Source: a virus | DNA length: 43,599 bases | Reading direction: 5' to 3' (one strand) | IMG/VR virus record: IMGVR_UViG_3300026116_000058 | Span: 1 to 43,599 of that record | Part shown: positions 17,483 to 27,600 of the stretch, one piece after another | Layout of the letters: the number at the start of each line of letters is the position of its first letter | How positions within the stretch are numbered: position 1 is the stretch's first letter | Made by a program: the position numbers and the translations under genes | The notes under the pieces: generated by a model | Database searches by the model: none | Told to the model about the DNA's origin: nothing | What the model saw: the letters and a program-made list of their open reading frames with translations, nothing else

Positions 17483-18637
17483 TTAGCCGTTCTGCACGGG
17501 AATAGTGTTCACGCCGTAGCCATTCACGCCCATCGGGTTGTAGCCGTTCGGTGCGGCCTGATAGGGATTCTGCGCGTTGAGATACGACGACGCGCCGATC
17601 TGGCCGATGTTGTTGATCGCGCTGCCCCAGAGGTTGCCCTGCGCGGTGCTGCCGGCCGCATTCGCATTGCCGATGCCAGCGAGTGTGTTGCTCGCGGAGT
17701 TCGCATAACCTGACGCTGCGTTGCCAGTCATCGCCGCCGCGTTCTCTCCCAAGCCCGCGAGGTTGAACAGGTTCCCTACTTGGCGCTGATAGGCGGGTCC
17801 TGCGACGGAGTTGCCGATGTAGCCGCCCAGTTCCTTCAGGAGCCCTCCTGACAGCAGCGTGCCTTTCGCCGCCGCGCTGTGCTGAATCGCGCGCATCGCT
17901 TCATCGAAATCGAACTTGTAGCCGGGCGTGTCCTGAATGATCTTCGTCGGATCGCCACCCGCGCCCATCAGGCTCCCCGCGAGTCCTGCGCCTGCGCCGA
18001 TAGTCCCGAGTGAGCCGCCGGAGCCTGCCGTGGAGTTCGCTGGGTCGCTCAACCACTGCCAGTTGGCATCGCCCGCCGGCAACACGTCGAAGCCTTGCCC
18101 GTTGGCGCTCACCCAATCGCCGGCCCGCTGTCCCCCGTTCGTCCAGTTCTGCCCCGGATACTTCTGGTTCAGGTAATTCGTCACCTGATCCATAACCTGT
18201 GGGTTGCCACGGAACTGCTGCGGGCTGATGCCGAGTTCTTGTGCGGCTTGCATGAACTCGGACTGGTAGTCACCGCCTGACTGTGGCTGCACACCGCCCA
18301 ACTGACCGCCAGTCACGCCGGTGTTGCCACCACCGCCCTGTAGCGTCTGATAGGGACCGAAATCGCCCGGCTGGAGTTGACTGGCGTCGGTGTAGGGCTG
18401 TCCAGTCCGCGGATTGATAAGCGGCGGACCAGCCACCACTGCGGAACCAGTAATCGGCCCCTGCTGATAGGGCTGCGGCTGTGTCTGAATGCGCGGATCG
18501 GCACTCGTAATCGCCGGAGGCGCGTAGAATCCAGGCGCGGTGATCGACCCGTCAGGCGCATACGTCGCGCCGCCGAGTTGACCACCTGTCACGCCGGTAT
18601 TCGTCGCAGTCGGAAACTGCGTGAAGAAGCTACCCAT
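17483..18637 (-). CDS. DNA transfer / ejection protein, Gly-Asn rich, 384 aa
   Basis: The start is placed at the ATG 18637 (MGSFFTQFPTATNTG). A longer frame exists but lies in the upstream gene, and 8 bases overlap is normal here. The C-terminal half has a strong family pattern of podovirus DNA transfer proteins: PGYKFDFDEAMRAIQHSAAA, KGTLLSGGLLKELGGYIGN, then LFNLAGLGENAAAMTGNAA and repeated GNANAAG. The N-terminal half is low complexity (Gly, Gln, Pro, Tyr) and holds two copies of NTGVTGGQLGG. It probably sits in the mature capsid and enters the cell with the DNA. Confidence 0.75.
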   Translation of the reverse strand: MGSFFTQFPTATNTGVTGGQLGGATYAPDGSITAPGFYAPPAITSADPRIQTQPQPYQQGPITGSAVVAGPPLINPRTGQPYTDASQLQPGDFGPYQTLQGGGGNTGVTGGQLGGVQPQSGGDYQSEFMQAAQELGISPQQFRGNPQVMDQVTNYLNQKYPGQNWTNGGQRAGDWVSANGQGFDVLPAGDANWQWLSDPANSTAGSGGSLGTIGAGAGLAGSLMGAGGDPTKIIQDTPGYKFDFDEAMRAIQHSAAAKGTLLSGGLLKELGGYIGNSVAGPAYQRQVGNLFNLAGLGENAAAMTGNAASGYANSASNTLAGIGNANAAGSTAQGNLWGSAINNIGQIGASSYLNAQNPYQAAPNGYNPMGVNGYGVNTIPVQNG

Positions 18638-19229
18638 TGGCTGGCCCCAAGACTTTACCGGTCGGATCTTCCTTCTGCGCCTGTGCAACCTGATTCGCAG
18701 GAATCATGTAGACCGTCCCATCCGAATGCTGAAACTTCAGCGTAGGGATGGGTGAGCTGTGCGGCGCGTAACCCGTCGCCGTGTTGTTCGCGAACCCCCC
18801 TGGATCACCCAAGGTGTTCGTGCCGGGGACCTGTCCCGCATATCCGCCGTTCTTCGACGGATCCGAGATCGCGCCCATCTGCATCGGATAGTTGGCCGAC
18901 GAATCGCGCGTCAGGCCATCGCTCTGGCCACCCCCGCCCATCAGGCTCCCAGCCATACTCGCGCCTTGACCGATGGTCCCCAGCGCTCCCGCATTCAGCC
19001 CGAGCAGGTTCATCAGGCCGTTGGGGGATCCGAGCGCTTCGGTGCCCGCATTGCGGTACGGGGCGAGATCGCCGCGCGTCGTGTTGTAGATGTCCTTCTG
19101 CAACGCGAGCGATTGCTGACCCGCCTCGGTTTCAGCCTGGGTGGCTTTGCTGGCGGCGTGCGATCCGATCGCGGCGCCTCCAATGGAGCCTGCGCCCGCG
19201 ATGATGCCGCCGACTACGGCTGCTGGCAT
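18630..19229 (-). CDS. gp7-like virion protein with N-terminal hydrophobic segment, 199 aa
   Basis: The start at 19229 is fixed by GAGAGGAA 7 bases upstream; the longer frame (from 19253) has no such site. The N-terminus (MPAAVVGGIIAGAGSIGGAA, then IGSHAASKATQAETEAG) is typical of podovirus DNA-ejection proteins such as P22 gp7: a Gly-rich membrane-active helix, then Ala/Gln helix (LQKDIYNTTRGDLAPYRNAG). It shares LGTIGxGAxxAGSLMGxGG with its neighbour. Its C-terminus (TLKFQHSDGTVYMIPANQV) is a small beta unit. First of the ejection-protein set. Confidence 0.75.
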   Translation of the reverse strand: MPAAVVGGIIAGAGSIGGAAIGSHAASKATQAETEAGQQSLALQKDIYNTTRGDLAPYRNAGTEALGSPNGLMNLLGLNAGALGTIGQGASMAGSLMGGGGQSDGLTRDSSANYPMQMGAISDPSKNGGYAGQVPGTNTLGDPGGFANNTATGYAPHSSPIPTLKFQHSDGTVYMIPANQVAQAQKEDPTGKVLGPANG

Positions 19230-19612: not shown

Positions 19613-20314
19613 CTAACTGAACTCCCAGATCACAAGCACGCCGTTTCCACCCGCCCCGCCCGCCGTGGCTGCGCCACCATTCAACGTCAAGCCACCCGAC
19701 CCGCCGCACCCATAGCGGCCCCCAGTTACGCCTGTGTTTTGGGCAATTCGCTGTAGCGCCTGCCCGCCAAAAGGCCCGGCCGCGCCATAGCCTGAACTCC
19801 CGACCGTGCCAGAAGGACAATACGCATCGCCGCCCGCGTTGCCATCAAACGCAAGGTCGCCCGTGCAACTCGCCGCTGCTCCACCCACCCCACCAAGCGC
19901 AAACAATGGCGTTGTCGTGGCCGCCATCCCCGCGCCACCGACGCCGCCCTTTGCCACCACGGTTGTCGTGTTGAAGGTCGTATCGTTGCCGTTATTGCCT
20001 GGGTTATTTCCTGCCGTGCCTGCCGTGCCTCCTGCTCCGACCGAGACCGTCACCGGACTCGCCGGGAGCGTCGTCAGGAAACTCTCCACGTAACACCCAG
20101 ATCCTCCACCCCCGCCCCCAGCCGCAGATACCGCCGCCGTTGCCCCGCCTCCACCGGCCCCTCCCGCGCCAAGCGCCATCACCAGCAGCGCCCGCGTGCC
20201 GGACGGATAGGTATAGCTCGTCGTGCCTTGGAGGATCACCTGTTGTGAGGTATAGGCATATCCGGCAGGTCGCCCAGCGACGGGGGTGCCGTCAGCGTTA
20301 TAGATCTGCTGCAT
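19613..20314 (-). CDS. Glycine-rich tail adhesin A, 233 aa
   Basis: Start at the ATG 20314, with GGGAG 8 bases upstream and TAATG overlap with the upstream paralogue. Very Gly/Ala-rich (LGAGGAGGGGATAAVSAAGG) with a C-terminal end GGAGGNGVLVIWEFS. The design (short N-terminal beta part, long polyglycine region, aromatic end) resembles glycine-rich fibre-tip adhesins such as those on some T-even phages, which bind receptors through loops between polyglycine helices. It is paralogous to the next gene. Likely receptor binding; which of the two is dominant is unknown. Confidence 0.7.
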   Translation of the reverse strand: MQQIYNADGTPVAGRPAGYAYTSQQVILQGTTSYTYPSGTRALLVMALGAGGAGGGGATAAVSAAGGGGGGSGCYVESFLTTLPASPVTVSVGAGGTAGTAGNNPGNNGNDTTFNTTTVVAKGGVGGAGMAATTTPLFALGGVGGAAASCTGDLAFDGNAGGDAYCPSGTVGSSGYGAAGPFGGQALQRIAQNTGVTGGRYGCGGSGGLTLNGGAATAGGAGGNGVLVIWEFS

Positions 20315-21015
20315 TAGTAAAACTCCCACACAACGATCACGCCGTTTCCACCGGCCCCCCCGGTGCCAGCCCCGCCCGCGTTGATACTGAATCCTCCAGA
20401 TCCGCCTGCGCCATACTTTCCACCAGCGGCGCCGGTGCCTTGCGTCGTTCGTCCGGCAGGCCCCCCTCCAAATGGCCCGTTTCCACCACGCCCGTTAATT
20501 GCCACCGTGCCCGACACGCGATGGAGCACAACCGAACTATTCCCACTCCCAAAATAGTCCGCTGCTCCTAGGTTTGTGCTCTGCCCTTGGCCGCCTAATC
20601 CAAACACTTCTGAGGTGCCAGTTCCAAGTGATGCACCAGTAGCAGCGTTGTTCATCGTCATATAGTTAAACCCGTTGGCATCTGCGAACGACGTGGCTAT
20701 ACCTGAGGCTCCCGCGACGCCTCCCGCACCTACGGTCGCAGTGAAGATCACATTTGAGGACGTGGCAATAGGCACGGTCACCATGTACACGCTTCCAGCC
20801 CCACCGCAGCCCAGAGCGATTTGCGCGGCAGACGAATTCACCGAACTCGATCCGCCGCCGCCCCCACCGATGCCCTCGACAATCAACACGCGACAGCCAA
20901 CCGGCGTCGTATAGGTGTTCGCTCCGGTCGCCGTGATCACGGTGCGCGACCCTAACAGTGCCCCCGTCATCTGCAGCTGAATCAGCACGCCGCTGCGGTT
21001 CATCAACCACTGCAC
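20314..21015 (-). CDS. Glycine-rich tail adhesin B, 233 aa
   Basis: Same length and plan as its downstream neighbour: a short N-terminal beta region, polyglycine stretch (GIGGGGGGSSSVNSS), and the nearly identical end GGAGGNGVIVVWEFY. The loops between glycine runs differ strongly, as expected for receptor-binding variants. It starts 1 base from the 110-residue accessory gene's stop. Probably a tail-tip adhesin. A tandem duplication followed by divergence explains the pair. Confidence 0.7.
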   Translation of the reverse strand: MQWLMNRSGVLIQLQMTGALLGSRTVITATGANTYTTPVGCRVLIVEGIGGGGGGSSSVNSSAAQIALGCGGAGSVYMVTVPIATSSNVIFTATVGAGGVAGASGIATSFADANGFNYMTMNNAATGASLGTGTSEVFGLGGQGQSTNLGAADYFGSGNSSVVLHRVSGTVAINGRGGNGPFGGGPAGRTTQGTGAAGGKYGAGGSGGFSINAGGAGTGGAGGNGVIVVWEFY

Positions 21016-21351: not shown

Positions 21352-22443
21352 TTATCCGTTCGCGATCACGAAGTCCTCACCGACCCCGCCGCCACCTTGG
21401 TTGATCAGCACGAAGCCACTCTCCCCATCCTCACCATCCGAGCCTGGAGGGCCGACACCCGCCGGGCCCGTGGCTCCTGTCGCTCCCGCGGCGCCTTGGG
21501 CTCCCGCTGGTCCAGGCGGACCAAATGCGCCGGGTTCGCCTTCGTCACCGTCATAGCCGGGTGGACCGATTTGGCCAGTGGCTCCCGTGGGACCAGTGGC
21601 GCCGGCTGGGCCGGTCGCGCCGACCATGCCAGGCGGGCCCATCGGCCCCTCGTCGCCGTCGTTCCCCGCGCCGGGAGGCCCTGACGGACCCACAGGCCCC
21701 ATCGCGCCGGTGGCCCCCTGTGGCCCTGTCGCACCGGCGGGCCCTGGGATGCCTGGTTCTCCATCCTCACCATCAAGGGCAAGTGGTCCGATTGGTCCCG
21801 GTGCCCCAGCTGCGCCGGTCGCCCCGGTGAGTCCTTGCGGACCTGTGGGGCCGAGCAGTCCAGGCTCCCCGTCCGCGCCGTCTTGCCCTGGAGGTCCAAT
21901 CGGTCCTGCAACGCCGGTCGGCCCCTGTGGGCCCGGAGGTCCGCCAGCCGGTCCCGGTGGTCCCGGAGGGCCTTCCGGTCCCTCGGGCCCCTCTGGGCCG
22001 TCCATGCCGAGCGATCCCGGCGGGCCGGCGGGTCCTTGTGGACCCACCGCGCCCGTGGGTCCGGTCCCCAATACCGCGCCGGTCGTGTCCAGCACGCGGA
22101 AGCCTTCGCCATCCGTGTACTGGAGCGTGTAGCCGACCGAGAGAATGACCGTGATCAGCGCGCGTGGCGTGCCCGACGTATCGAGTTGGATCGTGACCGT
22201 CGCCGCGGCCGTATCGCTGTTGCGAACCGTGAGCAGCTTGACTTGATGCTGCGTGGCACTGTCCGCGGGCGATGGCACGAGCGTGACCGGCGTAGCGCCG
22301 CTCGTCAGTCCGTCCGTCTCGACCGACGAGAAGATCGTCTCGTTGAGTACGACGTAGCTTGAGACGAATGGCAACTGACTGGTGGTTACGCCACCAGCCA
22401 GCACCACTTGCAGCGTCTTCGTCGTCGCGTCGAGAATGATCAC
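21352..22443 (-). CDS. Collagen-like tail fibre, 363 aa
   Basis: Residues about 1-125 are a beta-rich N-terminal (attachment) domain. Residues about 126-345 are Gly-X-Y repeats ([16 protein letters not shown] and onward), which form a trimeric collagen triple helix. The repeat is broken at intervals by acidic units ([32 protein letters not shown]). The last 20 residues ([19 protein letters not shown]) form a cap. Such fibres extend from the tail to touch the host. GC-rich coding of Gly and Pro explains the long mirror frame on the other strand. Confidence 0.85.
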
Positions 22444-22805: not shown

Positions 22806-24023
22806 TTAGATGCGAAGCGAAGCAATTGCATAGACCCGAGCGACCGCATCAGGGGCCAGGGCCGGATAGGGGACCGAGAGTGGAATCAAGTTCTGTCCGT
22901 TGAGCACCGTCAGTCCCGTCGTGGTTCCGGTGCCTCCATTCGGGGGCTGCAGGACGCCCGACGCTCCCGAGACGTTCGGCCCAGCACCTGCCGCATTCAT
23001 CCCGCGCTGCAAGGCACTCAGCCACACCTGATCGATGCGGTTCCCTGAGTTCGGCTGAATCAGCGGCTGATGCTGCACCGTCTGCAAGCTGATGACAGAG
23101 GTCTGCCCTTCCACGGCCCCTGTCGGGAACGCAGCGCCACTGAGGGCCGACTGCGGCGTGATGACCAGCGACCCACCAGAAGTGGTCCCGGTGGAGTTTG
23201 TCGCGTTGCTGATCGTCAGATCGATGAGTCGCAGGTCGGTCGGCGCTTCGCCCGTCGTCACACTCCAGCCGACGCGCACGGTGCCAGCCGAGAGCGACAC
23301 CGCGTCAGGGCCGAACAGATTCGGAGATGTCGCCAGCACGAAGCCGTTACTGGACATGGCCGGGCGAATCGTCAGTTTCGTCGCGGTGAGCTCCACCACA
23401 TAGAGCACGCCAGAAATCTCGATCGGCACCATGCCTGCCACGACTTCATCGGTGCGTGGGGCAAAGGGCTGAAGGACGCCCGTGACGATACTGCGGATAT
23501 GCCATTCGCCCGTGGTGTTGCGATTGGTAATGACCCCGCTTTTCGCGCGAATCCCGCTGAAGGTCTGGACCGCGATCGTGGCGAGCTTGGCCCCGGACGA
23601 GGCATAGGACACGATGCCGTTGTCCGCCGAGGCGAGTTGCACCACGACTAGACGGCCGTCCTCATCGACGTCGCCCAATCCGGCCTGAGGCAATCGCGCA
23701 AGGATGTTGGAGCGCACCCCCTTAAGTGCCCCACCAGAGAGAAACGCGGCCCACTTGCTGTTCCCCGCCGCGAACGCTTGCGCCGCATCCGTCACGCCGG
23801 AGGGCGTCGGATCGAGCACACTGAGGGTATCCGTCGAGACGACGTACTGTGCGAGGAAGTTGCCACCCCCGCTATCGAATTGCCCGCCGAGGGTGTCGTC
23901 ATCCAACCAGCCCCAGCCGCCGCCCAGTCCCCCGATGAGGGCGGGAGGCACGACGCCATTGATGGAGATCGCCGTGGATCCGATGCCCATCACGGCCTTG
24001 CCGGTGAGTGGAGAGAGGCGCAT
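22806..24023 (-). CDS. Propeller-like tail protein, 405 aa
   Basis: Start at the ATG 24023 overlapping the preceding stop (TAATG); the longer frame is rejected. Repeated units of four short strands with Gly/Asp turns (SKWAAFLSGG, DEDGRLVVVQLASADNG, GEWHIRSIVTG, VRVGWSV) suggest a beta-propeller. The C-terminal part holds NRIDQVWLSALQRGMN and a GTGTTTGLTVLNGQNLIPL end typical of fibre domains. It follows the LamG protein and probably belongs to the same tail assembly. Not recognised by family. Confidence 0.6.
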   Translation of the reverse strand: MRLSPLTGKAVMGIGSTAISINGVVPPALIGGLGGGWGWLDDDTLGGQFDSGGGNFLAQYVVSTDTLSVLDPTPSGVTDAAQAFAAGNSKWAAFLSGGALKGVRSNILARLPQAGLGDVDEDGRLVVVQLASADNGIVSYASSGAKLATIAVQTFSGIRAKSGVITNRNTTGEWHIRSIVTGVLQPFAPRTDEVVAGMVPIEISGVLYVVELTATKLTIRPAMSSNGFVLATSPNLFGPDAVSLSAGTVRVGWSVTTGEAPTDLRLIDLTISNATNSTGTTSGGSLVITPQSALSGAAFPTGAVEGQTSVISLQTVQHQPLIQPNSGNRIDQVWLSALQRGMNAAGAGPNVSGASGVLQPPNGGTGTTTGLTVLNGQNLIPLSVPYPALAPDAVARVYAIASLRI

Positions 24024-26323
24024 TAGCTCGTCCCCTTCTGGACTTGCGTGTAGGCCGAGAGCACCGCCCACTTCACCGGGTCACTCATCGCGATCTTCCA
24101 CACGCGATCCCGTGAGCGGCCGAGCATCCGCCAGATGGCGCGGGCGGTGTACTGCCCCTGTCGCCCGGCACTCACCCAGTGCTCATTGCTCCACGTATGC
24201 CCGCCATCGTCGGACCACTGGAGCATCACCTGGGGATCCGAGCCTTGGCCCTCACTCAGTCCGACGCCCGTCTCCAGATCGAGTTGCAGCATCGAGAAGA
24301 ATTGCCAAAACTGCTCCTGGCTCAGATGCGGAAAGATGCGCTCGCGGCGAATCAGGTAGTTCTGCGGCGTCGATGGCGTGACACCGACCGAGGTATGGAT
24401 CCACATCGGGCACGAGAAGGACGGCCCGAAGCGTGCGGTGGGTGTCGCGGACGCTGCGGCGGCATATACCCCGCGCTCGTACTGCGCCACCGTAAAGTCG
24501 GATGCAAAGCTGCCATCGGCAATGACGACGTTCAGGTATCGGTTCGTGCCGTCAATGTGGCCGCCGGCATCTTGTGGATAGATCCAGACCCAGAATGAGG
24601 CTGGATCATCAAGTGCCCGACACATGCGGTTGACCGCCATGGTCGAACTCCCGACATGGAACGTATTCAGCACTGCACCTGCGGTGGAATACTGAAGCAC
24701 GTAACTATCACGCACTGCCGTGATCTTCTTGTAGGCGACCACAATCGTGTCGTCCGACAGCACGAGGATGTCTTGCATCACGTTGTAGTTAGCCACGCCA
24801 GCCACTAGATCTGCCAAGGCCACATCGTTAACAAGATCCCACCGCTGGACCGAAACATTCGCCGCTCCGGTCACGGCGTAATACAGAATCGACTCATCGG
24901 AGTTAACCGCCATGCCAAGGTTGAACTGTGTTGTGGCTGGATGTGAGATCGTCCATGTCGTTGGCCCGAAACTTCCATCCATGTTGACCTTGACCACGGT
25001 CGAGTGGGTCGTGTCAGCCCCTTTCGCGGCAACAAACCATCCGCCCAAAGGGCTGGTGTAGATGTGTCTCACCTCATCGTGGAAGCTAACCGGATATGCA
25101 ATCGTGTTGACGAGCGTGAAGTCGGCATCCCAAATCTGCAAGCCAACCGGATCGAGGTTGAAGTCAACCGCATCCGCCAGCACGAGCCCATCTGGCTGAA
25201 TGTCGGCGGACTCCCCAGCCGAGAACACCTTGTGTCGCTTGACGGCCCCAGAGGAGGACTGCAACGCCACCACGGGAAACCCGAAGGTTTCATCGTTCAC
25301 CATCACGTCGCCGCGCGTGATGGTCTGCGTCGGTTGCGCCACGGCCGAAAAGGTCATATCTGCCGTCGCCGCCACGTCAAGGCCGGCGTTAATCACCTCG
25401 AAGAAGTATTGCGTGCTTGGTGTGATCGGCACCGAATAGGGGACGTTTGTAACGGTGTCGCCAATATCTACGATGTCATCGAGTTCGTTCAGCGCCGTGG
25501 CGGTCCCGTACCAGATTTTCACTGAGGGCTTATTCGGGCTGGCGAGACTCGTAAACGCCCATGTCCCAATGACGACATCTCCAGCCACTGCGGTGTACGT
25601 GAACCAGACATGAGGATTGAGACTCGTGCTTGGCGTGATCTTCTGCGTGACGCTGAAGGGCAGTGTAATGACCGTCGCCGTCGTTGCCGCCGCATTCGGC
25701 ACCAATGACGGACCAGCCACGAAAGATCCGGAGCCGATCTGCGTCCAGTCATGCCCAGCCCCGCTATCGTCCAACAGGTCTGAGACGAGCGGGCAATCCA
25801 TGTAAAGCCCAGTGGTTAGAACGGCCACAGTGCTCGCCATCTCTATGCGGATCTGGGCTTGGGTCAACGCAGCAGTCCACTGACGGCAATACGCTAGATC
25901 GATATTCCCGCCACTCAGCGAGTCGCCGCCGAGCACGTCTGTGACGGTAGTCAGCCCAGAAAGATCGAGCGCAAACGTCGCTACACTGGTGCCGTTCACG
26001 AACAACGTTTGAGTAGTGCCGCTCGTCGTCCACGCAAAATGCGACCATGTATTCGCGGTCTGTGGTGGTCCGAAATCATCATCCGTCCCGGCCGGCACTG
26101 ACAATGCGAGGTCATTCCCGTCCGTGTTCAAGAACACGCCCCCAAACTGCGTATAGGTGGCAGGCGTGTTATTCAGCGAGGCCATGGGCGTGTTGTAGTT
26201 CGCAGGGCCCACCGGCACCACCACCTGGCGAACCCAGGCCATCCACGTCCGACTACCAGCAGTCGGTAACAGCGCCGTGGTGCGCTGGAGATAGTCGGCG
26301 TTCGTCGCGAGATGGACGGCCAT
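24023..26323 (-). CDS. Tail protein: LamG and propeller domains fused to a gp10-like C-terminus
   Basis: 766 residues. About 1-210 match a LamG/concanavalin-like domain (TWMAWVRQVVVPVG, NTWSHFAWTTSGTTQTLFVN, IDLAYCRQWTAALTQAQI). Residues 215-640 look like a fibronectin-like unit plus a beta-propeller. Residues 656-766 (YLIRRERIFPHLSQEQF, MLQLDLETGVG, LQWSDDGGHTWSNEHWV, LGRSRDRVWKIAMSDPVKW) match the C-terminus of P22 gp10-like tail hub proteins. The upstream 381-residue protein has the matching N-terminal part. So a gp10-like gene appears split, with LamG sugar-binding material inserted. It probably sits at the tail hub and contacts host glycans. Confidence 0.75.
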   Translation of the reverse strand: MAVHLATNADYLQRTTALLPTAGSRTWMAWVRQVVVPVGPANYNTPMASLNNTPATYTQFGGVFLNTDGNDLALSVPAGTDDDFGPPQTANTWSHFAWTTSGTTQTLFVNGTSVATFALDLSGLTTVTDVLGGDSLSGGNIDLAYCRQWTAALTQAQIRIEMASTVAVLTTGLYMDCPLVSDLLDDSGAGHDWTQIGSGSFVAGPSLVPNAAATTATVITLPFSVTQKITPSTSLNPHVWFTYTAVAGDVVIGTWAFTSLASPNKPSVKIWYGTATALNELDDIVDIGDTVTNVPYSVPITPSTQYFFEVINAGLDVAATADMTFSAVAQPTQTITRGDVMVNDETFGFPVVALQSSSGAVKRHKVFSAGESADIQPDGLVLADAVDFNLDPVGLQIWDADFTLVNTIAYPVSFHDEVRHIYTSPLGGWFVAAKGADTTHSTVVKVNMDGSFGPTTWTISHPATTQFNLGMAVNSDESILYYAVTGAANVSVQRWDLVNDVALADLVAGVANYNVMQDILVLSDDTIVVAYKKITAVRDSYVLQYSTAGAVLNTFHVGSSTMAVNRMCRALDDPASFWVWIYPQDAGGHIDGTNRYLNVVIADGSFASDFTVAQYERGVYAAAASATPTARFGPSFSCPMWIHTSVGVTPSTPQNYLIRRERIFPHLSQEQFWQFFSMLQLDLETGVGLSEGQGSDPQVMLQWSDDGGHTWSNEHWVSAGRQGQYTARAIWRMLGRSRDRVWKIAMSDPVKWAVLSAYTQVQKGTS

Positions 26324-26437
26324 CTACCGGATCGCCTCGATTGCGGAGATGATCGGCTGCACGAGGATCCACCGCGCGAGCAGCAACGCGATGCCGCCCG
26401 CAATCGCCCAGCGCATCCAATACTGAAACGGAGTCAT
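26324..26437 (-). CDS. Small membrane peptide within the split gp10 region, 37 aa
   Basis: ATG at 26437 gives MTPFQYWMRWAIAGGIALLL followed by a short basic and hydrophobic end; one membrane helix. A GTG at 26458 in the same frame overlaps the upstream stop and may be the true start (44 residues). The TAG lies directly before the LamG protein's ATG. A membrane peptide between two halves of a tail protein is odd; it might be remnant DNA of the insertion or a gene brought in with it. Confidence 0.45.
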   Translation of the reverse strand: MTPFQYWMRWAIAGGIALLLARWILVQPIISAIEAIR

Positions 26438-26454
26438 GGAAGTAATCGGCCCAC

Positions 26455-27600
26455 TCACGCCGCCACCGTGCCCGCATTCACGATGAGCAGGTCTTGCAAT
26501 TGATTCAGCGATTGCCGATACACCGTCGCGCTCTGCCGATCCCCAACTAGATGCAGGCCGAAGCCGTAGGCATGGCACCGCCCAACATGCGGACGCCAGA
26601 ACCGAATGGTCGGATCCCACAGTGCGCGTTCATGCCAGAGGCCCGTGCTCACATCGAACACAGGCGAGGTGGGCAAGGTCGGGAAGTACATCTGATAGAA
26701 CGCGTGCCCGGATTCCTGCCACGTCCAGCCGATGACATTCGCGCCGGTCAGCGCGGTTTCCATGTACGTCTGCATCCCGAAGGTCGAGATGATCTGCGGG
26801 GTGTAGCCATTCAACTTCACGACCTGCATCGCGCCTTGCGCGTCCTGTGCCTGGTAATACAGCGTGTTGTCCAACTGCACGACCGAGAACGGCGACAAGA
26901 CACCGTGCTCTACCAGCGTCTGCGGCATCGGCTGAAACGGAATGTTGGAATCCCCGGTATCGACGTAGGGCAAGGAATGCTGCGAGCCGAACACCCAGAG
27001 CACTTCGTGACTGACCGCAATCGCTTGGACGTTGTCCGAGAACTTCGACACCTCGAACACGTCCAAGATGTCCCAACTCGTCCCGTCCAGCAGGGCCGAG
27101 AGGAACAACTGCCGACTATCTCCCTTCATCACGATGAAGTAGTCATCGAGAAACACTCCCATCCGCGCCGGGGTGAGGAAGTTCACCGACGAGATATGGG
27201 ACAGCGTGTTGGTCGTCAGATCGAGGATGTAGAGCAACCCGCCAGACGTGATGAGGATCTGATTGCCGGCCGTGCCGTTGCTGGAGAACGTGACCGGGTT
27301 GTCATCGACCGCCAGATCCAAGGGGTAGGCTGAGACGTTCCCTGACGCGAAGATTTCGCAGAGGAAGTTGCCCCCCACGGCCCACACGCGGCCGTCCTGC
27401 GCGAAGATGCCGCGCACGGGTCCAGCGCTCAAGGTGGCGAAGGGCGCGAGTCCAGCGGTCCCATAGAGCGCCCCTTGCGCGTTCTTGGGGGTCGCGCCTC
27501 CATCAGGTATTTCTGGATAGAGGTTGATAGTGCGCTCTAGATCCTGATTCCGACTCCGCGCCGGCCAGCTCGGGCCGACCACGTTGGGGATCGTCGCCAT
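26455..27600 (-). CDS. gp10-like tail hub protein, N-terminal part
   Basis: 381 residues matching the N-terminal about 380 of P22 gp10-like (packaged DNA stabilisation/tail hub) proteins: MATIPNVVGPSWPARSRNQD, then INLYPEIPDGGA, LYGTAGLAPFATLSAGPVRG, GNQILITSGGLLYILDLTTN, VLWVFGSQHSLPYVDTGDSN, and RCHAYGFGLHLVGDR. The usual C-terminal about 110 residues are missing here and appear at the end of the 766-residue protein downstream. In P22 gp10 sits below gp4 and holds the DNA in. The two parts would have to assemble together. Starts sharing a base with the gp4-like stop. Confidence 0.85.
   Translation of the reverse strand: MATIPNVVGPSWPARSRNQDLERTINLYPEIPDGGATPKNAQGALYGTAGLAPFATLSAGPVRGIFAQDGRVWAVGGNFLCEIFASGNVSAYPLDLAVDDNPVTFSSNGTAGNQILITSGGLLYILDLTTNTLSHISSVNFLTPARMGVFLDDYFIVMKGDSRQLFLSALLDGTSWDILDVFEVSKFSDNVQAIAVSHEVLWVFGSQHSLPYVDTGDSNIPFQPMPQTLVEHGVLSPFSVVQLDNTLYYQAQDAQGAMQVVKLNGYTPQIISTFGMQTYMETALTGANVIGWTWQESGHAFYQMYFPTLPTSPVFDVSTGLWHERALWDPTIRFWRPHVGRCHAYGFGLHLVGDRQSATVYRQSLNQLQDLLIVNAGTVAA

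Follow-up and report, generated by a model that had tools for sequence, protein, structure and literature searches.

In tails of the P22 and T7 types, the gp10 or nozzle ring gates the DNA channel and belongs to the conserved core, while tail fibres and spikes combine a conserved N-terminal anchor with an exchangeable distal module. In P22 virions, gp10 is a hexamer located between adaptor and needle. P22 gp10, the needle head of Pam1 and the stabilization protein of Pan3 are each a single chain of 442-472 residues. T7 gp12 is likewise one chain with a propeller and a platform and, according to the accessible part of PMC6702177, its platform includes three N-terminal strands and a peripheral domain, the fibre dock, connects the end of the propeller with the platform. 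In the SU10 nozzle protein gp17, a single chain of ~910 residues with large nozzle domains between blades 2 and 3, both chain ends enter or leave the platform beta-sandwich and a fibre-dock loop is found at blade 1, as described in the accessible part of PMC9509320.

The stretch of viral DNA analysed here (the window, 43,599 nucleotides) differs from these single-chain proteins in that the gp10-like parts are distributed over two chains with an added module. This two-chain form of a known hub is genuine and conserved, and its second chain is exchangeable. No earlier report of a two-chain gp10 was found in the literature searched, which covered subscription papers poorly and included the accessible parts of PMC6702177, PMC10386132, PMC9509320 and PMC9382816.

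The two genes and the folds of their products

The original prediction was that a P22 gp10-like gene is split in this locus, with the C-terminal end of the hub at the end of a second, larger protein. Both open reading frames were confirmed from the sequence at the predicted positions on the minus strand (Table 1), and they are transcribed in the order chain 1, membrane peptide, chain 2. P22-like coat (PF11651, 123 bits) and portal (PF16510, 446 bits) genes lie upstream of chain 1, and the locus is therefore a P22-type structural module, resembling P22 also in its neighbourhood. Elsewhere in the window, a tail-fibre-like collagen-repeat protein of 363 aa (21352-22443), two neighbouring glycine-rich proteins that are similar by eye (19613-20329 and 20314-21015) and a match to phrog_598 (DNA ejection; 17483-18688) were observed, while tRNA and Rfam searches of the window gave no match.

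Table 1. Positions of the two hub genes of the window, their parts and the peptide between them
Feature	Position (strand)	Length or residues	Description or basis
Chain 1	26455..27600 (-)	381 aa	gp10-like hub without the C-terminal ~105 residues
N-terminal segment of chain 1	27466..27600 (-)		lower confidence in the lone-chain model; analogy to T7 gp12 and the SU10 nozzle; covariation with the C part
Beta-propeller of chain 1	26503..27468 (-)	~45-366	model strands 44-364; propeller fold matches
Predicted membrane peptide	26324..26458 (-)	44 aa	between chains 1 and 2; read from sequence
Chain 2	24023..26323 (-)	766 aa	putative display module and gp10 C part
LamG-like domain of chain 2	25850..26302 (-)	8-158	PF13385 (Laminin_G_3), E 1.6e-07
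Beta-propeller of chain 2	24389..25315 (-)	~337-645	YWTD/NHL propeller matches, Z ~20-21
gp10 C part of chain 2	24026..24352 (-)	658-766	phrog_578 match and sequence alignments; includes the Asp-box SDDGGHTW

A membrane peptide had been placed between the two genes, which is retained, with a length of 37 residues, which is not. Its GTG start at 26458 overlaps the chain 1 stop, and a similar ORF of 41 aa (L266, 3700-3825) has the same MSGP...MT start, so that 44 residues are more likely; its TAG abuts the ATG of chain 2. Small predicted membrane peptides directly before chain 2 were seen in the window, in L266 and in L311 (2451-2546).

The two chains cover the profile phrog_578 (P22 gp10, head closure Hc3; 486 columns) in a complementary way, chain 1 matching columns 8-360 (E 4.8e-58) and residues 658-765 of chain 2 matching columns 369-473 (E 2.2e-22). 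Only eight columns separate the two matches, which indicates a break at a single point. The single-chain form of this family (~470 residues) is replaced in the window by two ORFs with a third between them. The expected gp10 likeness of each part was thus recovered with phrog_578 but not with PF11134 (Phage_stabilise): a Pfam scan of chain 1 gave no family at E ≤ 1, and PF11134 was absent from the Pfam matches listed for chain 2. Another profile, phrog_19101, was considered as a family specific to the split form and dropped, because its matches include the C end of intact gp10.

The model of chain 1, built from a 62-row alignment (mean pLDDT 89.8, pTM 0.89), superposes on residues 2-374 of the 471 of P22 gp10 (8eap_D; Z 35.3, 349 aligned, rmsd 2.4), and similarly on Pan3 (2-334 of 445, Z 36.7), Pam1 (1-330 of 442, Z 33.5) and Sf6 (2-373 of 471, Z 32.3). 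The fold of the SU10 nozzle is also matched (Z 23), while T7 gp12 was not among the 50 fold matches listed. Chain 1 lacks an equivalent of the final ~97 residues of P22 gp10 in this superposition; it has no full-length alignment to the family and stops short as anticipated. The less certain parts of the model are the first 40 and the last 12 residues, with block means of 58-87 in the N-terminal segment.

The model of chain 2 (19 rows, mean pLDDT 77.7, pTM 0.58) consists, in order, of a LamG-like domain, a middle beta domain, a propeller, a weak linker (~647-659) and a stranded C part, in agreement with the predicted LamG domain and propeller ahead of the gp10 end. The LamG-like domain is matched by Laminin_G_3 with 32 bits against a cut-off of 27.6 and by the fold of the LamG region of PAPP-A (Z ~20). 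The fold search of chain 2 covered mainly residues 249-646, and the likeness of the C part to gp10 C-termini is by sequence, including alignments to Pan3 353-438 and Pam1 353-434. The LamG and propeller folds of the model are no more than compatible with the sugar binding that had been proposed, and several relatives have other modules.

Distribution, gene spacing and phylogeny of the split

Relatives were collected by seven scans of viral_contigs, one scan of genome_contigs (62 loci) and searches of named phages; alignments were needed, as a single-protein scan of viral_contigs with the 766-aa protein gave no match. The 382 sequences gathered include 73 duplicates of another's N-part DNA. In the de-duplicated set, and among the matches listed, at least 242 loci have both parts in one ORF, which supplies the unsplit relatives that had been sought, and 43 have them in different ORFs. 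Three of the latter (L229, L235 and L172), first sorted as split, are frame-broken inside an in-frame insertion, leaving 40 true splits, window included. This number contains L295, in which the C part, at the end of the contig, is out of frame; the covariation and identity counts omit this locus. The remaining loci comprise 9 in which chain 1 is closed and the locus lacks a C part, 8 with an incomplete N part, 4 open at a contig end and 3 with a C part only. Since one scan was aimed at the split clade, the split and intact counts are not a sample of nature. The 62 loci of the genome_contigs scan held no true split, and all five of the named-phage loci examined have both parts in one ORF. One further locus, L216, was set aside because its gp10 is fused to an extra piece that we take to be a terminase end.

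In all 40 split loci, the chain 1 stop is located 5 to 13 residues past the last profile column. The split is thus the same junction across a lineage of uncultured short-tailed phages rather than a peculiarity of the window phage. Added modules are also found on the gp10 scaffold of one-ORF genes, whose insertion, however, interrupts either a C-part loop or the N part and is not at the propeller exit. The former are the in-frame insertion forms (733-740 residues) of the Gluconacetobacter loci L227, L230-L233, L236, L241 and L242, and also L228 and L238. An additional 87-296 residues within the N part, around profile columns 55-125 (possibly the site of the T7/SU10 nozzle domains), are found in the intact genes of L022, L025, L027, L031, L036, L052, L097, L125, L195 and L240.

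The start of the second gene overlaps the stop of the first by one or four bases in 21 of the 40 split loci. The distance between chains 1 and 2 is 0-3 bases in 6, 49-131 in 3 (window included) and >150 in 10, where L298 and L303 were measured to the long second chain and L295 to its frame-broken end. With L295 excluded, nine loci have gaps of 388 to 3824 bases, in which other genes may lie. In L266 (3434-3703) and L004 (4109-4354), the end of chain 1 is overlapped by small ORFs of 81-89 aa that contain CxxC and the motif GRLLCGxHFYG.

We have also considered that a programmed frameshift or readthrough joins the two ORFs, such that the virion would have one long gp10 with an internal module. 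The overlapping stop and start codons would permit this, and intact gp10 proteins with long in-frame insertions do exist (734-740 residues, Gluconacetobacter loci), in a different loop. However, a slippery X XXY YYZ heptamer, in frame and within the last 75 bases before the stop, was found in none of the 21 overlapping loci, the nine loci with long gaps and the intervening gene of the window do not fit such a fusion, and the extra C-part chains described below cannot all be fused to one chain 1. We consider this explanation very improbable. An assembly or sequencing error, or a broken gene, is improbable to the point that we give it almost no weight: frame-broken loci do occur (L229, L235, L172 and L295), but the relatives contradict such an origin, with the break recurring at one position in 40 loci on many contigs, coupled start codons and low dN/dS.

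Whole records were searched for 17 split-type loci and one intact control (L294). Each has one N part, that of the control in two pieces in one frame, and a C part is present in 17 of the 18, the exception being L301, a 25.9-kb fragment. With a single N part per record, the 17 split-type records gave no sign of an intact gp10 in addition to the split pair.

An IQ-TREE phylogeny of 94 rows (34 split, 5 with chain 1 closed, 54 of the 171 intact rows and Pam1 as the intact outgroup, with 14 long-branch intact rows excluded by name) needs one change of the split label. The split branch is supported by 93 bootstrap/48 SH-aLRT, is found in 94% of 200 bootstrap trees, and is nested within intact clades of 99/98 and 100/99 support. 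Because of this nesting, and because Pam1, P22 and Sf6 are intact, the split form is the derived one. One change also suffices on a FastTree phylogeny of 212 rows, where the branch is weakly supported (62); the support of the split branch is thus uneven.

As to hosts, the search covered 396 genomes from the phylum to which the Acidobacteria MAG behind L202 belongs. Three match and one of them (G212) is of the split type, with a chain 1 of 372 aa, a gene of 353 aa and a second chain of 188 aa. The contig, of 60.7 kb, is phage-like in the parts read, which leaves room for a binning error and makes the host link weak. The same record holds an ORF of >3,800 codons, open at the locus end (L398, 8469-20003, reverse complement).

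Module exchange and the probable pairing of the two chains

The second chains range from a near-naked C part (L272, 161 aa) to 872 aa. Some contain LamG and many are without any Pfam family, and among 39 loci the modules have no detectable similarity in 354 of 741 pairs. Many C parts are preceded by Pro-rich or Ser/Pro-rich linkers. Modules are swapped between near-identical hubs: L284 and L292 are 95% identical in chain 1 and 89% in the C part, and L313 and L314 90% and 85%, respectively, with unrelated modules in both pairs. The original view of a 2-kb insertion that split one gene must accordingly be revised, as the tree and the module swaps point not to a recent, single event but to a clade-wide architecture with a freely exchanged module. 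The C part is under selection, with dN/dS of 0.113 in L268/L269 (chain 1 0.083, module 0.306) and 0.08 in L290/L302 (chain 1 0.015, module 0.117). The correlation of N-part and C-part distances is 0.667 in split loci versus 0.907 in intact ones, which points to a looser link between the parts than within a single gene.

Four of the 40 split loci (L275, L287, L298 and L303) have two C-part chains, an arrangement not found among the at least 242 one-ORF loci, frame-broken ones aside. The second such chain of L275 (11940-13748) has a very long Ser/Pro repeat stalk, and one of the two in L287 is almost bare. These genes suggest a mixture of decorated and bare second chains. The C part might then be a general plug, where any protein ending in it would complete the platform sheet of chain 1 and several kinds of second chain would be present per virion in a mixed hexamer carrying different host-contact modules, a possibility that we put forward tentatively and hold to be rather less probable than its opposite.

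Covariation between the N-terminal segment and the C part was calculated from 215 paired rows, 39 of them split (Meff 144). The pair N38-C26, mostly K-D, ranks second among all covarying pairs, and N27-C96 (L-I or W-W) ranks twentieth. Among variable columns, the top 50 contain 4 pairs between N1-45 and C versus 2.0 expected, and 2 between N46+ and C versus 14.3 expected. For N1-45 the numbers become 5 versus 4.0 in the top 100 and 9 versus 8.0 in the top 200. This modest excess, which fades beyond the top 50, is consistent with, but no proof of, the N-terminal segment touching the C part.

These results bear on a further alternative, in which a functional hub needs only chain 1, and chain 2 is an independent tail fibre that uses the old C part as a clip. 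Chain 1 does fold confidently by itself, with an apparently complete propeller, and the C part can be duplicated or up to 3.8 kb distant. On the other hand, a lone chain 1 would leave the final ~97 residues of P22 gp10 unmatched, its N-terminal segment is among the least certain parts of the model and covaries with the C part, and near-naked C-part chains, such as those of L272 and L287, would be needless for a mere fibre. We therefore regard this alternative as unlikely.

The proposed hub and its implications

The two-chain hub of the original prediction is well supported by the complementary profile coverage, the fold of chain 1, the 40 split loci and the 17 split-type records without an intact gp10. 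We consider it probable that the two genes encode one subunit of a P22 gp10-type hub (nozzle), with a module that contacts the host and is exchanged through recombination independently of the hub parts, which remain together. We infer that chains 1 and 2 assemble physically and that the module binds the receptor.

With the break at the propeller exit, the two sides of the platform should be divided between the chains. Chain 1 would supply the N-terminal platform segment and the entire beta-propeller, with the C-terminal platform segment coming from the end of chain 2, and the chains would be joined through a shared platform beta-sandwich. The module, located at the propeller exit ahead of the C part, would occupy the place of the T7 gp12 fibre dock; the latter, however, holds a separate fibre and is not itself an exchangeable module. 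Each second chain that is incorporated would anchor its module on the exterior of the hub, where it most likely touches the host surface, and recombination would exchange the module with the hub parts remaining together. In comparison to tail fibres and spikes, the anchor here is C-terminal and would itself be a structural piece of the hub.

Such an architecture is easily missed, because annotation pipelines would report a truncated gp10 for chain 1 and an unknown LamG protein for chain 2. The split offers a natural point for studying platform assembly. Exchange of the second chain probably lets these phages change their bacteria-facing surface with the hub unaltered. If the proposal is true, it would explain how surface modules change without tail-fibre anchors, and the exchangeable second chain would couple host contact directly to the DNA gate.
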